Assembly (NCBI GenBank): GCA_951799425.1
Contig: OX637397.1
Span: forward strand, 11,769,064 to 11,833,063
Length of the DNA: 64,000 nt
Origin: Ilex aquifolium
Taxonomy: Eukaryota > Streptophyta > Magnoliopsida > Aquifoliales > Aquifoliaceae
Reading direction: 5' to 3'
In this document: piece after piece, positions 52,871-61,598 of the stretch
How positions within the stretch are numbered: the first letter of the stretch is position 1
Layout: each line of letters opens with the position of its first letter
Translations under genes and position numbers: made by a program
Notes under the pieces: model-generated
Seen by the model: the letters and a program-made list of their open reading frames with translations, nothing else
Told to the model about the DNA's origin: nothing
The model's database searches: none

Positions 52871-53443
52871 GAATCTGGACCATCAATGATAGGGTAAGAA
52901 TATCCTTTGGTGAACTTTTGGCCATCCTCCTATGACGTTCTGATCTGCTCAGGCCATCCTTCAAAGAATTTTTGGCCATCCTCCGACGAGTTTTCAACCT
53001 GCTCCGACCACCTTTTCTACTATGGCTTCTCAAAATGATGTAGCTCGCCCTATAGAGATTGTGTTGGACAACACCAACTACAATGCTTGGGTCCAACAGA
53101 TGAAATTTTTTTTGCGTTGGCTGAGATTAGGGGGTTTTGAGACTTGCACAAAAGAGGAACCCACAAAAATTAAATAGAAACTAAAAAAGAAACTGAAGCT
53201 GAATTTGATGATCGCCTTGAGGCATGGGAAGACATTCATTGTAAGATTCTTTCTTGGTTTATTAATACCTTTGTTCCATCTATTTGGAGTTTTTTTTTCT
53301 AAATTTCAGAATGCCAAGCTTGCCTAGGATTTTTTTGGCAAACTGATACAATTGTTCTAGTGATGCTGCTCTCCAGTTTTAGCTAGAATCTAAGCTCTAT
53401 CAGATGCGGTAGGAATCTGGCCAATCTATTCATGCTCAAGTTA

Positions 53444-53470
53444 CAATACAACAAAAAGCATTTTTTGCGA
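53444..53470 (+). repeat. Left terminal inverted repeat of CACTA element
   Basis: CAATACAACAAAAAGCATTT then TTTGCGA. It differs at about three of 27 positions from the right end. The canonical CACTA is changed to CAATA here, which may make the copy immobile. Confidence 0.85.
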
Positions 53471-53699
53471 AGTTTTTTTTTGCGACGATTTTCAATTTGT
53501 CGCAAAAAGATTGCTATTAGCGACGATTTTATAATTTTGTCGCAAAATTCTATTTTGGCAATTTTTTTGCAACGTTTTCTGAAAAACGTCGCGAAAAGGC
53601 TTTTCCCTCCTACGTGTGGCGGAAAAATTTATTTGCGACGTTTTCTAAAAATGTTGCAAAAAATGAATTAAATTATTATTTTTTTTATTTTTTATTTAT

Positions 53700-54560
53700 G
53701 GAAAAATGTATTTGCGACGTGTTCTAAAAACGTCGCCAAAAAAGGAAATAAATTATTTTTTTTATTATTTCACATAAAATAAAAAATTAACAAAAAATTA
53801 ACTTTATTAATTTTTGCGACGTTTTTAAAAAACGTCGCCAATAACTCTTTACATAAAATAAAAAATTAACAAAAATATTAACTTAGGCATTTTTTTGCGA
53901 CGTTTTTTAGGCATTTTTTTTCGACGTTTTGAAAAAACGTCGCAAATAACTTTTTACATAAAATAAAAAATTAAAACAAATAATAACTTTGGTAATTTTT
54001 AGCGACGTTTCTAAAAATCGTCGCCAATAACTTTTTACATAAATTAAAAAATTACCAAAAATATAAACTTTGGGAATTTTTCGCGACGTTTCTAAAAATC
54101 GTCGCGAATAACTTTTTCCATAAATTAAAAAATTAACAAAAATATTAACTTTGAAAATTTTTCGCGACGTTTCTAAAAATCATCGCCAATAACTTTTTCC
54201 ATAAATTAAAAAATTACCAAAAATATAAACTTTGGTAATTTTTTGCGACGTTTCTAAAAATCGTCGCGAATAACTTTTTACATAAATTAAAAAATTACCA
54301 AAAATATAAATTTTGGTAATTTTTCGCGACGTTTCTAAAAATCGTCGCGAATAAATTTTTCCATAAATTAAAAAAATACAAAAAATATTAACTTTGGTAA
54401 TTTTTCGCGACGTTTCTAAAAATCGTCGCAAATAACTTTTTACATAAAACAAAAATTACCAAAAATATTAACTTAGATAATTTTTAGCGACGTTGTTATA
54501 AAACGTCGCCAAATAACTTTTTACATAAAATTAAAAATTAACAAAAATATTAACTTTGAT
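53700..54560. repeat. Subterminal array of 81-bp units with GCGACG/CGTCGC hairpins
   Basis: Units start at about 53816, 53897, 54001, 54082, 54163, 54244, 54325, 54406 and 54487; the period is 81 bp in the regular part. Each carries gcgacgtttctaaaaatcgtcgc-type inverted pairs, followed by aataactttttacataaatt and aaaaattaccaaaaatat. Subterminal repeats of this kind are the transposase-binding region in studied CACTA elements; binding here is inferred. Confidence 0.85.
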
Positions 54561-55680
54561 AAACAATTACTTGTTAATTTGGTACTGATTTGATAAATTA
54601 CATGTTAATTTAATGAAATTGAATGTCAATTGGTTAAATTTGAATGTTAATTTGATTAATTCAATGTTAATTTGATGAATTGAGTGTTAATTGAATGAAA
54701 TTTATAATTTATAATTTAAATGTTTATTATCTGCGACATTTTTTGAATTTTGTCGCAAATTTCCTTTTTTGGCAATTTCATTTGCAACGTTTTTTGAAAT
54801 TGATTGTTAATTTGGTATTAATTCGATTAATTGAATGTTAATTTGGTTTTAATTTTATAAATTAAATTTTAATTGAATGAAATTACATGTTAATTTGGTA
54901 TTGATTTGATAAATTACATGTTAATTTGATGAAATTGAATGTCAATTTGTTAAATCTGAATGTTAATTTGATAATTTGAATGTTAATTTGATGAATTGAG
55001 TGTTAATTGAAAGAAATTGAAAGTTGATTTGATTAATTTAATGTTAACTAGTTTAATATGAATGTTAATTTTATAATTTGAACGTTAATTTGATGAATTT
55101 AGTGTTTATTGAATGAAAATTGAAAGTTTATTTGATTAATTTAATGTTAACTAGTTGAATTTGAATGTTAATTTAGTGAATTAAATGCTTATTAGAAAAA
55201 ATTGAATGTTAATTAGAAGAAATTGAGTGTTAATTTGATTAATTGAATATTAATTTGGTTTTAGTTTGATAAATTAAATTTTAATTGATTGAAATTACAT
55301 GTTAATTTGGTGTTGATTTGATAAATTACATGTTAATTTGATGAAATTGAATGTCAATTTGTTAAATCTGAATGTTAATTTGATAATTTGAATGTTAATT
55401 TGATGAATTGAGTGTTAATTGAATGAAATTGAAAGTTTATTTGATTAGTTTAATGTTAACTTGTTGAATCTGAATGTTAATTTTGTGTTAATTCGATTAA
55501 TTGAATGTTAATTTTTTTTTAATTTGATAAATTAATTTTTAATTGAATGAAGTTACATGTTAATTTGGTGTTGATTTGATAAATTACATGTTAATTTGAT
55601 GAAATTGAATGCCAATTGGTTAAATCTGAATGTTAATTTGATGAATTGGGTGTTAATTGAATGAAATTGAAAGTGTATAA
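54540..55680. repeat. AT-rich minisatellite-like region within the CACTA element
   Basis: Degenerate tandem units of about 15-30 bases built on gaatgttaatttgat/attaaatgttaattgaatga. Larger blocks recur: a section with aattacatgttaatttggt is seen near 54560, 54880, 55290 and 55550, giving a higher-order period of several hundred bases. No open frame survives in it. Confidence 0.75.
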
Positions 55681-55991
55681 TTTAAATGTTTACTATCTGC
55701 GATATTTTTTGAATTTTGTCGCAAATTTCCTTTTTTGGCAATTTCATTTGCGACGTTTTTGAAAAACGTCGCCGAAAGGTGATTCCCTCCCAATTTATTT
55801 TTGGCCCGAAAGATGGCGGGAGCTGAATAAAATTATTATTTAGCGACGTTTTATATTCGTCGCAGAATTCAGTTTTTTGTAATTTTAAATTAGAATTAAA
55901 ATATTAATTGCGACGTTTTATATTTCGTCGCAAAATATATTTTTTAAAAGAGAAACGACATCGTTTTTGGGCGAAAGAAAATTCATTTAAA

Positions 55992-56013
55992 CTCAAAACG
56001 ACGTCGTTTTGAG
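55992..56013. promoter_or_regulatory. Palindrome AAAACGACGTCGTTTT plus TATA-like motif
   Basis: A 22-bp perfect palindrome has the core AAAACGACGTCGTTTT. A weaker copy (AAACGACATCGTTTTT) lies at about 55952-55967 and TATTTAAATA follows at 56014-56023. Pyrimidine-rich 5'-leader-like sequence then begins near 56050. This looks like a host promoter carried into the transposon. Confidence 0.5.
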
Positions 56014-56335
56014 TATTTAAATACGTCCATTTGGCCCTAGCAGCCCCTTCTTCTTCACATTCCCCTTTCCAACACTCTCTCTCTCACTCACCGTCTCCAT
56101 CTCTCTCTGTTTTTCTATCTCATTCCCCCCCTCTTTGTTCCCTCTCTTCTGAGCCCCACCCACCTATTGCTTACAACCATAGCCACCTCTTCTTCGTCAG
56201 CCAAAGCCTCTAGCCCCACCCACCTCGTCTCCCTCTCTCTCTGTTTTTTTGCCTGGGATTGGGTCTGTGTGGTCCGCGGATATGATTCGATTTTGTTGGA
56301 TCACCGCCTATTTCGGTTTGATTTTGGAGATCGGA

Positions 56336-56481
56336 ATGGCGTCATTGAGGAATGGTAAATTGCCGGAACCAGGTTCTGCAGTTCTAGCAATTTCTGCATT
56401 TACTGAGGCTCATAAGGTGCTCAAATCGCTTAGGCTGAGAGGTTTTGTGGAAGGACAGTGCTCTGAGAAGAAGGAAAAGAG
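56336..56481 (+). pseudogene. Unidentified exon-like captured segment
   Basis: From ATG at 56336 a GC-richer open stretch reads MASLRNGKLPEPGSAVLAIS, then a Leu/Lys/Arg-rich section ending [11 protein letters not shown], and meets a donor-like AG|GTACCT at 56482. It differs in composition from the flanking AT-rich transposon, so it may be a captured exon of another host gene. I do not recognise the family. Confidence 0.3.
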
Positions 56482-56547
56482 GTACCTCTCTCTCTCTCTC
56501 GATCTCTCACCTCTGACTCCTCTGCAGAAGAAGACCCAACTCAGGCC

Positions 56548-57839
56548 ATGGCGCAGGTACCTCTCTCTCTCTCGATCACGACTCACACACACACACAATC
56601 GAACACACACACATACACAGATCCCACACCCTACGAGGACGAGAACTATCTCAACATCGTCACTGACCTGTGTCAATCCCCTGATCTTTACGAGAGAATC
56701 ACCAAATCTACCTTCACAGAGTCCGAATCTGCGACGATTCTGAAATCTCTGATCTCGGCGATAAGTTTTTGCCATCATATGGGTGTTCCTCATAGAGATA
56801 TAAAGCCTGATAACATATTGTTTGATTCGAGAAACAGATTGAAATTGGCTGATTTTGGATCGGCGGAGTATTTCGGCGTCGGTAATGAGAAGGGGACTAT
56901 GAGAGGGGTGGTGGGTACGCCGTACTATGTGGCGCCGGAGGTGTTGATGGGGAGAGAGTACAATGAGAAGGTTGACGTGTGGAGTGCTGGTGTGATTTTG
57001 TACATAATGTTGGCCGGAGTTCCGCCTTTTTACGGTGAGACGGGGACGGAGACTTTTGAGGCGGTGTTGAGGGGGAATTTGAGGTTTCCGACGAGGATTT
57101 TCCGGTCAGTATCTCTAGAGGTGAAAGATCTGCTGAGGAAGATGATCTGTAAGGATGTGTCCCGGAGGTTATCTGCCGGTCAAGTTCTAAGTATGTGATT
57201 AATCTCTTCACCAATCTTCTTATTTTTGTTTATATATTTGATTTTTTTAGTTAAATTTAAGTTATATACCTTACTGGGCCTGTTCTTTTCCTTTGATTTG
57301 TTGATCATTTGTTTTGCTCTCTGTTTCTTTATTTTCTTTGATTTTTGGTTTTTTTTTTTTGAAGTTTCACTCAATTTTTTCCAAAAAATTATAGACCCAG
57401 TTTGATTGTGAGAAAATGAATTCATAAAGTAAAGGCAAAATTTTGTTAATTCTAGTTGTTTACTTTGCCCCCAGAATTGTAGCCTTCTGTTTGGTTACTG
57501 AGAAAATGAGGGGAAAGAGTCGAGTTATACATTTTTTCTGCTATGTTGTTGTTTGGTTACTGAGAAAATGAATTCATAGTTAGGTTGAGTTGGTCGTAGT
57601 TTCTTTGGTTTTGTCAGATAAAATTTTTATTTTTCAAGCTTCTAAACTTCGGCATCTTTATTCTGTTTCCTCTGTTTTTTCACATCTGCCAAACACACTT
57701 GTGGTTAGGCATCTTTTTTCTGCATTCTTATCTTATGATGTGCTGTTTATTTAATGCAGGGCATCCATGGATCATTAGTGGAGGAGAGACCTCTGTTTAT
57801 TTAATTTTCAATTTTAGTTTTCCTCTGTTTTTTTTTTAA
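56548..57839 (+). pseudogene. Captured PEP-carboxylase-kinase-like gene fragment (kinase C-lobe), chimeric open frame
   Basis: PEPC kinase phosphorylates phosphoenolpyruvate carboxylase in the cytosol. The frame 56548-57190 plus 57760-57839 gives 240 residues without a stop. From about residue 29 ([15 protein letters not shown]) it follows the family: HRDIKPDN catalytic loop (82-89), DFGSAEYF (102-109), GTPYYVAPE (123-131), [20 protein letters not shown] and [20 protein letters not shown]. The intron 57191-57759 (GTATGT...ATGCAG) joins QVL to RHPWIISGGE, the family's usual intron place, so capture was at the DNA level. The N-lobe (Gly-rich loop and ATP-lysine) is missing and is replaced by (CT)n/(CA)n-derived residues. 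It is therefore not expected to be an active kinase. A CDPK fragment is the alternative, but the lack of EF-hands and the motif wording favour PEPC kinase. Confidence 0.75.
57191..57759 (+). other. Retained intron of the captured kinase fragment
   Basis: The donor CTAA|GTATGTGA and acceptor TTTAATGCAG|GGCATCC give AGG-CAT-CCA-TGG (R-H-P-W) across the junction. The intron is T-rich, as in plants. Confidence 0.7.
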
Positions 57840-60780
57840 GTTTTCGTGGAGTTGGAATTTAGGTTTGCAATTGACCGTTGGAGCTTTAAAATTGAATGTT
57901 AGGGTTATTTAATTGGAATGGGTGTTATTTTGATTGAAATGTTAGGGTTTATTATTGTTTTGATTGAGATTAGTGTCAATTTCATTAAATAGGGTTTGTT
58001 GAGTTTTTAGATGTTAGGGTTTTTGTTAGTTGAATGAGTTGGGATGTTGCGTTGATGATTATTGCATGTTATTATAGTTTTTAGATGTTGGGTTTTTGGA
58101 CGTTATTATAAGATGGGGTTTTTATTGAATGTTATAGTTGTTAGTTACATTTTGATTGAATGTTATAGTTATTGATGGTATTTGATTGGATGTTATGGTT
58201 TTGAAATTCAATGTTAGGTTTATTTTGATTGCGTTTGGGTTTTGATTTCATTTTTTTTTAAAATAACATTGTATTTTTAGGGTTTCACAATTGAATGTTT
58301 GGGTTATTTTATTGGAATTGGTGTTATTTTATTTTTAGGGTTTCACAATTGAAATTAACTGCATAGCCACCACCGTTGTAACCGCACAACCATCGAAAAA
58401 TGGATGATGTTACTATTTTTTGCAGTGTAAGTTCATCATTTCCTTAATTCTCTCTAAACATCTCTTATTGGTGTTTTTTGAGATTACTTCTGATTTTAAA
58501 TGGTCAGTACGTTCTCTTTGATTCTTTGGTCAGTGTCTAAATTTAAATGGGTAACAATTTCTGTCTTAACTTACAGGCAATACTTTATATGTATGATTTT
58601 TTTTCCATCCTTTTATATTAATTTCTTTTCATTTTTTTCCAATATGGTTCCTTGATTTGATAAAAAAATTAATGGTTCCTTGATATTTTACCTTCAAGAT
58701 AGAAGATTACTAATTTTTTTAATGGCTTTTTCCATTTCATGTTTCCTTTTGTGAGTAAAATTCTTTTATGTTAATACATGCACCTATGTAGGTATGTTTG
58801 GGTGGACTACTGAATGAGTCCTATGTAGAAGCTATAACAACTCAAATGGAGGCTTTGGGGGATATGGATCCTAGAATTAAATGCAGATATATTTTCATGT
58901 TAGTGTATATAGAAGTTAGATGACCCGTATCATGGGTTTTTGTTCTATTATTTGTTTAGGTTCATTTTACGATTACTTTAGATTCGAGTTGATGTGAGCT
59001 TTCTAAGTAGGTTTGATTTCATGAAAATTTAGGTTTAGTTTTCAAATAAGGTTGTGATTACTTTGGGTTTGATTTTGCTATGGTTTGATTTGATTTGATT
59101 TGAATTTTAGGTTTGATTACTTTATTGGAATCTTGAATTGGGGATTGTGAGTTCTTATTTGATTTTATTTGATGTTACATTGTTTGGTTTCCTTGAAACT
59201 CGCAATTGAATTTGAGGTTTATTGATACTCAATTGGATTTTAGTTTGGAGTTATTTTGTTTTTATTACTTTTCTTGGGATTGTTTAATTATTTGGGATTG
59301 TTCAATTTTGTAGCCACGCGAAATTGGATACCAAAAATTGTATAGAGAGTGAAGCTGCTTGCCCCACTACATTTGTTGAAATCTCCTCTCATTGCTCGCA
59401 AGGTTATGTGCTTCTCTTAGTTGGTTATTTATAAATCATCTATTTTTAGGAATTTTGTGTTATTCCTTTAAGGTACTTGATTTAACATTTGTTTTTGGCA
59501 TGTGAAAGAAGTTTATGCGTGTAATTGGGTTTAGACTTTAGACAATTTTTTGGGTGCTACAAAGAGTTTTGAAATTTTCTTTACTTCTTTAACATACATC
59601 TTTTTCTTTTTCTTGCTTACAATATTGTTTTTGTTTGATTGATAAATTAATTCAATGTTCAACTTCTATTTGATGGCACCAATATGGTTTTGGGTACTTA
59701 TTGTTGGTTTACTTGAGTGCTATGTAGTAATAACCTTTCTATTGTTTTATTATTTATTTTGACCTGTGTTTTATTGATTTCCAACTAAGCAAATCAAAGA
59801 CGAAGCACATTGTATGTATGCTTTGAAGATGATTACACTAGATAGGTTGTTAAAACATATTCAGATTTGTGGGATTTCGTTTAGTGATTTAGTATGTGAT
59901 TTTTTTTTGGTACGCCACTTTTTTTGCTTTAAACTTGAATTAGTATGTAGTTTTAAAATAAGTAGTGTTTTAGTTTAATTTCCGCAATGCACAATGATTT
60001 TGTTCTTCAATCTTTGTTTTTATGCTAACTATGTAGTTTTTTAATTTCAGTTTGATCTTACTAGAAATGTTTGTAATGAAACTTGCGATCGATTGACGTG
60101 GATTAGGTGCTCGGAAGCGGTGGTTACAGGTTGGGGCAGCGGTGGAGGTGTGTTTTCTACAAGTGTGGTGCCTATATGTATCTATCGACAACAACTATGA
60201 AAGTGACCCCTCTTGGATGTCAAGTGCATTCTATGTTTGCTATGTTTTATTTTGGAGATATGTTTGGTGGCTTCATGGATTCCATTTAAGTATAAAATTG
60301 GGTTATTTGGAGTGGTGATTTTGTGGAAAGTAGAGTTGAATTGTGATGATTATTATATATAATTTTGATGGTTATATGTTTTGTTTGAATTATGATAATT
60401 TTTATGTATGATTATGAACTATGAATTTTGGTTCTTTGATTGGTTTGGATTATGTAGTGAGTTGTGAATTTTTTTTTTTGATTTGTTTGGTTCATCGAGT
60501 AAATTTTTCTTGAGATTGATTGTGCGATGGTTTGAGTTGGACAATGATATATATAATGAGATTTATAAGCTCTGTAGACATGTTAAGATTTTTTTAAGCT
60601 CCTACCTTTATAAGAAATTCTGTTGAAATTTTTTTAAAAAAATAGTGGAGACCTGATTGATTCAATTTTTTTAATTAAAACAAATGAAGGAAAATTTATT
60701 TCAAATTGTCGAGTTTTTTTAGGTGGCAAAGTGTCCTTAAGCACGGGTTATTACTAGTTTTTTTTTAAAGGGTCATTTTA
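57840..60780. other. Unassigned interior of the CACTA element
   Basis: AT-rich DNA with scattered gaatgttagggtt motifs (57880-58340) and T-rich, intron-like stretches. No recognisable coding domain was found. GC-richer islands at 58360-58430 and 60090-60290 might be exons of a captured or decayed gene, but I could not identify them. Confidence 0.4.
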
Positions 60781-60789
60781 AAAAAAAAT

Positions 60790-61323
60790 GAACTTTTTCG
60801 CGACGAAATTAAAATCGTCGCAAATTTATTTATTCAATTATTTTTTGCATTTTTTATTTAAAAAAATTATTTGCGACGCTTTTTTTACGTCACTAAAAAT
60901 TCATTAAATTATTATTGTTTTACATTTTTTATTTATGTACAAATCTACTTGCGACGTTTTTTTTTTTCGTCGCGAAAACTTAATTTAATTATTATTTTTT
61001 TACATTTTTATTTTTGTAAAAAATTATTCGCTACGATTTTTTTTACATCGCAAAAAATTAATTTAATTATTATTTTTTATTTTGTTACGCTGGTGGAATA
61101 GATTTTACCTACGTTTTTTTTTACTTTTAGCGACGTTTTTTTTTCGTCGCTAAAAATTTTTCTTGCGATGAAAATAAATTTGCGTCGCAAAATACTTTCT
61201 GCGACGAGGCTATTGCGATGAACACGAGACGAAAAAAAAAACGTCGCAAAAAATAATTTGCGACGATTTTTTTGAATTTAGCGAGGAAAAAAATCGTCGC
61301 AAAAAACGATTTTTGTTGTAGTG
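60790..61323. repeat. Right subterminal hairpin repeats and terminal inverted repeat of CACTA element
   Basis: Hairpins such as gcgacgaaattaaaatcgtcgc, gcgacgttttttttttcgtcgc and gcgacgattttttt...aaatcgtcgc recur to the terminus TTTTTGTTGTAGTG, which read inward is CACTACAACAAAAA. Confidence 0.85.
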
Positions 61324-61598
61324 TTAGTAGTGTTTGGGATCAGCTTTCTCAGGCAGACCCAACTTTTAAGGATGTTGACTCCATTAAGCTCTTTGCAAAC
61401 TACCGAGATCGTCGTCAGTTTATTCACTTTATGATGAACATTCGGGATGATTTTGAAACCATTCGAGCATCATTACTCCATCATTATCCTCTTCCTACAT
61501 ATGAAGTTTCCCTCACAGAGCTCATTTCTGAGGAAACATGTCAAAAAACTCGCTGGATCCATTCCACTGATTTGGTCGTGGTTGCTGCACTGTCTAGC

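Follow-up and report, generated by a model that had tools for sequence, protein, structure and literature searches.

The capture of host gene fragments by CACTA transposons is known, but the route by which the host DNA enters the element is less settled. Members of this group (DTC) have CACT(A/G) terminal inverted repeats (TIRs) and a 3-bp target-site duplication (PMC4423477). Pack-CACTA elements, which belong to the Pack-TYPE elements and are described from Arabidopsis, rice and maize, combine CACTA TIRs with an internal fragment of a host gene, and the account of them reports no transposase domain (PMC8903248). The model favoured there for Pack-TYPE elements, Pack-CACTA included, is that two elements inserted on either side of donor DNA are mobilized jointly and take the intervening DNA along (PMC8903248). 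The packFinder pipeline discards singletons, and a Pack-CACTA is in that sense expected to cluster with further elements of its kind. In soybean, the CACTA element Tgm-Express1 lies inside a flower-colour gene and holds five unrelated host gene fragments that keep their introns and splice sites, and chimeric transcripts have been shown (PMC1947982). Finally, rice sites from which transposons had excised combine sequence loss with foreign filler DNA of 13 bp on average (1 to 123 bp), which has been put down to synthesis-dependent strand annealing (PMC4423477).

The locus described here lies within a stretch of 64,000 nucleotides of the Ilex aquifolium genome (hereafter, the window) on contig C7, and was compared with 800 Mb of the same genome in 103 contigs. 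Our analysis confirms an ordinary gene-fragment capture of the Pack-CACTA type with unusually legible junctions (Table 1). As in Pack-CACTA elements, CACTA TIRs enclose a host gene fragment, and no transposase domain was found in 12 of the 13 ORFs of at least 60 aa; unlike what is described for them, the captured DNA has replaced an internal segment and is accompanied by templated filler, to which the model of two bracketing elements is poorly suited. As in Tgm-Express1, the intron and splice sites were kept, although a single clear kinase fragment is present here. The loss of sequence and the foreign filler recall the rice excision sites, whereas about 1.2 kb was gained here and the site is internal to the element. 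Our searches of the literature on PEPC kinases captured by transposons, and on Pack-CACTA elements with kinases, returned nothing on this case in the records seen. It is in our view quite probable that internal gap repair copied PEPC-kinase-like DNA into a CACTA element and that the dead fragment then drifted neutrally. With a young copy, readable junctions, and both the parent gene and sister copies lacking the piece in the same genome, the locus offers a clean single case for capture through internal gap repair with template switching.

Table 1. Features of the CACTA element and of its captured kinase fragment (window positions unless a contig is named).
Feature	Position	Strand	Basis or remark
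CACTA element, 7880 bp	53444..61323	+	TIRs, TTA on either side, empty sites, repeated relatives in the genome
5' terminal inverted repeat CAATACAACAAAAA	53444..53457	+	One change from CACTACAACAAAAA, CAATA replacing CACTA
3' terminal inverted repeat	61310..61323	-	Exact CACTACAACAAAAA
Left target-site duplication TTA	53441..53443	.	One TTA at two empty sites
Right target-site duplication TTA	61324..61326	.	One TTA at two empty sites
Predicted open frame, 240 aa if spliced	56548..57839	+	28 element codons, parent residues 77-273, filler-coded tail
Captured host DNA: later exon 1, whole intron, start of exon 2	~56631..57791	+	From the C1 PEPC-kinase-like gene
Captured intron, 569 bp	57191..57759	+	Aligned to the C1 gene intron; 23 substitutions
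Filler, 44 bp	57792..57835	+	Right edge approximate; shares exact runs of 13 and 15 bases with the captured intron
Donor stretch of the capture	L044:2812-3970 = C1:44792811-44793969		Alignment

The first-pass annotation, made from the letters of the window, had placed the kinase piece in a CACTA element defined by its TIRs and target-site duplication, and this assignment holds, with a single mismatch in the 5' repeat and TTA as the 3-bp duplication. When the two flanks were joined with a single TTA, the full 200 bases were matched at 8 places among the 24 matches listed, the best match at an empty site reaching 98% (C7:10728570), and the two places that were fetched both run uninterrupted across the insertion point with one TTA. 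The TIRs, the TTA and the empty sites together indicate that the ends of the element are correct and that the copy at this position is an insertion. The surrounding sequence (window 53344-53443 and 61324-61426) is itself another dispersed repeat, listed at 24 places, mostly on C7, and an ORF at the right flank of the element has no Pfam match. Among 12 of the 13 ORFs of at least 60 aa that overlap the element (all but 53432-53671), the kinase frame gave the sole Pfam family match and none matched a transposase; five exon-like peptides of the element were likewise assigned to no family. The element is thus apparently non-autonomous.

The kinase piece is readily recognized. ORF 56548-57198 is open and matches Pfam Pkinase (PF00069, E 2.5e-51) over profile positions 67-259 of 263, and its translation does contain the 16-residue kinase motif and the GTPYYVAPE that had been read from it. 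The intron had been called correctly placed, and it aligns to that of the C1 gene; predicted splicing after an exon 1 end at 57190 gives QVLRHPW, as in the parent. Within the noted 56548-57839, the captured part can be narrowed to about 56631-57791. The frame opens with 28 codons of element DNA, alignable to the sister copies, and its last codons (57792-57839) consist of filler and element sequence. The loss of the N-lobe is borne out by the point at which the Pfam match begins and by alignment with the parent, in which the glycine loop, the FACKTI lysine and the helix-C glutamate are all missing from the capture. The roles of these three features in kinases are established and, since the capture lacks them, kinase activity is not to be expected of it, as judged from its predicted translation.

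The proposed source could be traced. Among protein matches elsewhere in the genome the best are at C1:44792782 (92%), C18:6817496 (81%) and C11:26042726 (71%); in the remaining rows listed, matches longer than 100 aa reach at most 50% identity and shorter ones up to 70%. At the DNA level, the capture and the C1 gene are identical in 1139 of 1186 columns (96%), intron included, among the listed alignments longer than 90 bases, so that the element contains sequence of a host coding gene, as is expected of a Pack-CACTA. The retained intron indicates a DNA copy and rules out a retrocopy. The parent contains a single intron and an uninterrupted frame of 280 codons, and the C18 locus is a similar kinase gene of 279 codons. 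Pkinase covers residues 9-267 of the 280 in the parent, and all four Pfam models listed for it are of the kinase type. PEPC kinases (PPCKs) are described as consisting of one kinase domain without a C-terminal regulatory region (PMC12115312), a layout that the parent shares. Its length of 280 aa and its exclusively kinase-type models speak against a CDPK parent, one of the findings that would have overturned the first-pass assignment. Over the columns of the capture, the parent is 59% identical to a provisional reference sequence of Arabidopsis PPCK1; the values for a stretch of CPK3 and for a further kinase gene of the genome are 45% and 47%, respectively. In an NJ tree of seven sequences, drawn without support values and with the same provisional PPCK1, CPK3 and the other kinase gene are set apart. 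PEPC-kinase-like appears to be the best label for the parent gene. About 10 kb from it, C1:44804279-44804408 matches the capture intron and the end of exon 2 at 74% and is perhaps a decayed duplicate.

The element is repeated in the genome, and the kinase piece was found in this copy only among the best 40 of 75 candidates scored. A capture common to the element family can be rejected on the same scope. Consistent with this, all of the 54 matches to window 56500-57840 fall within its first 134 bases, which are element sequence, except those at C1 (two places), C18 and C11 and the match of the window to itself. On C13, C2 and C4, sister copies can be aligned with the element on both sides of the kinase piece, at 95-97% over 55780-56632 and at 97-99% from 57836 (alignments of at least 110 or 120 bases, starting no further than 60780 or 60740). 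Between these flanks they have 615, 627 and 652 bp, respectively, of other sequence in place of the kinase DNA. The kinase DNA has thus replaced about 0.6 kb of element sequence that the sisters have at that spot. C20 and C1 each have a more distant copy in which portions of this middle sequence are also present, which indicates that the state without the kinase piece is the older one. The element had been described as otherwise decayed, a description that we reject; its flanks differ from those of the three sisters by 2.5-3.5% on the 5' side and 0.8-1.8% on the 3' side.

Both edges of the capture could be located. On the left, the donor has CTCTACG, as does each of the five sister copies examined, and the window, one CT short, has CCCTACG; since some sequence is common to donor and element at this point, the edge can be placed only to within a few bases. 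On the right, identity with the donor ends at 57791 and the element resumes at about 57836. The intervening filler holds CTGTTTATTTAAT and TTTCCTCTGTTTTTT, both of which occur in the captured intron. Their summed match length of 28 was reached by none of 400 control segments of the element and none of 2000 dinucleotide shuffles; the longest match of 15 taken alone was reached by 6 of 2000 shuffles, donor intron and filler being both T-rich. The replacement of a segment, the short shared sequence and the templated filler together point to synthesis-dependent repair with template switching rather than to the mobilization of DNA bracketed by two elements. We infer that a break would have opened an internal gap in a CACTA element of an existing family and that strand invasion would have let the repair copy about 1.16 kb of the PEPC-kinase-like gene from another chromosome. 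Copying would have started at a few bases common to donor and element, some 0.6 kb of element sequence would have dropped out, and the 44-bp filler would have arisen from several switches of template at the opposite end. The outcome would be a Pack-CACTA-type element carrying a dead kinase fragment that has drifted neutrally since.

The bracketing model, although favoured for Pack-TYPE elements in general, is in our opinion improbable for this copy. It would be expected to leave inner element ends, and within the element the 8-base TIR core has no exact occurrence other than that of the 3' end. The element is moreover collinear on both sides with single sister copies that hold the internal segment instead, and the pieces of donor intron in the filler also argue against two flanking elements having moved together. 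Gap repair is itself confronted with two observations. The missing CT means that the left junction is no plain exchange within shared bases. In addition, the intron diverges from that of the parent by 4.1% (23 of 560 columns, the first bases of the intron left out), which exceeds the divergence of the 3' flanks from the sisters and, somewhat, that of the 5' flank. As the capture should be younger than the splits between sisters, the higher value would require either that the donor allele had diverged or that rates were unequal. The capture is assigned 4 of the 23 intron changes and the parent 7, and 12 are unassignable (the splice site of the outgroup is two bases off). The figure would be accounted for if the donor was an allele that by then differed from the assembled parent.

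Recent capture or use had been offered to account for the open frame. The former is supported by our data; the latter is not. Over 558 bases, the capture and its parent show 11 coding differences. When these were polarized by means of the C18 gene as outgroup, the capture branch received 6 nonsynonymous and 0 synonymous changes and the parent branch 0 and 4, one nonsynonymous change being unassigned (Fisher p 0.0048 with that change left out). Six nonsynonymous changes out of six have a probability of 0.14 under neutrality and, by an arithmetic estimate, of about 7 in 100,000 if constraint resembled that seen when the parent is compared with the C18 gene (Ka 0.065, Ks 0.62). When 7 to 11 changes were placed at random, the frame stayed open in 85 to 76% of cases (4000 simulations each). 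An open frame is thus expected from so few changes, and we reject it as a sign of use; more generally, when a capture is young, the openness of its frame tells little about whether it is used. The captured fragment looks neutral in its changes, with no sign of upkeep by selection, although weak or recent selection may have acted, given only 11 coding differences, one of them unassignable.

It is tempting to imagine that the frame is nevertheless expressed and kept as a protein, for instance as a dead decoy that would bind PEPC or the partners of the parent kinase. Its usable splice sites and the splicing of captured fragments into transcripts in soybean Tgm-Express1 (PMC1947982) would allow this. 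We consider it highly unlikely, as all capture-assigned coding changes alter the protein, including an Ala to Pro directly before HRD, the frame begins in repeat sequence of the element and ends in filler, and its openness is what random change would leave. Alternatively, transcripts or small RNAs from the capture could lower expression of the parent gene, which 96% identity over about 1.2 kb would permit. The capture is a single sense copy, with no adjacent inverted copy for a hairpin among the best 40 of 75 candidates scored, and such silencing has in our estimate a very slim chance of occurring. The idea that the element is transcribed and that its sense fragment tunes the parent gene, through small RNAs or another action of RNA, is a fainter prospect still; if it were true, the insertion would be a natural regulator of carbon metabolism.

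Other parts of the element deserve mention in their own right. It is apparently a mosaic, as some copies match only up to 56482 and others only from 56491. On the same contig, about 250 kb away, C7:12081681-12084170 is a 98% relative of its 3' part, upstream of which no match to window 55780-58291 was seen among alignments of at least 120 bases. A stretch of 31 aa, VCLGGLLNESYVEAITTQMEALGDMDPRIKC (window 58792-58884), is fully identical in 16 of the 24 genomic places listed, this one included, and has no Pfam match. Its DNA varies in 3 of 93 columns as compared with 206 of 2208 overall, a lower variation that is suggestive only, and special conservation of this peptide is unconvincing. Finally, an open stretch of 49 aa (MASLRNGKLPEPG..., window 56336-56482) is found at 12 places matching element DNA, this one included, and is 71% identical to a sequence at C2:2706514 inside an open frame of 310 codons, which may be the host source of an older capture.
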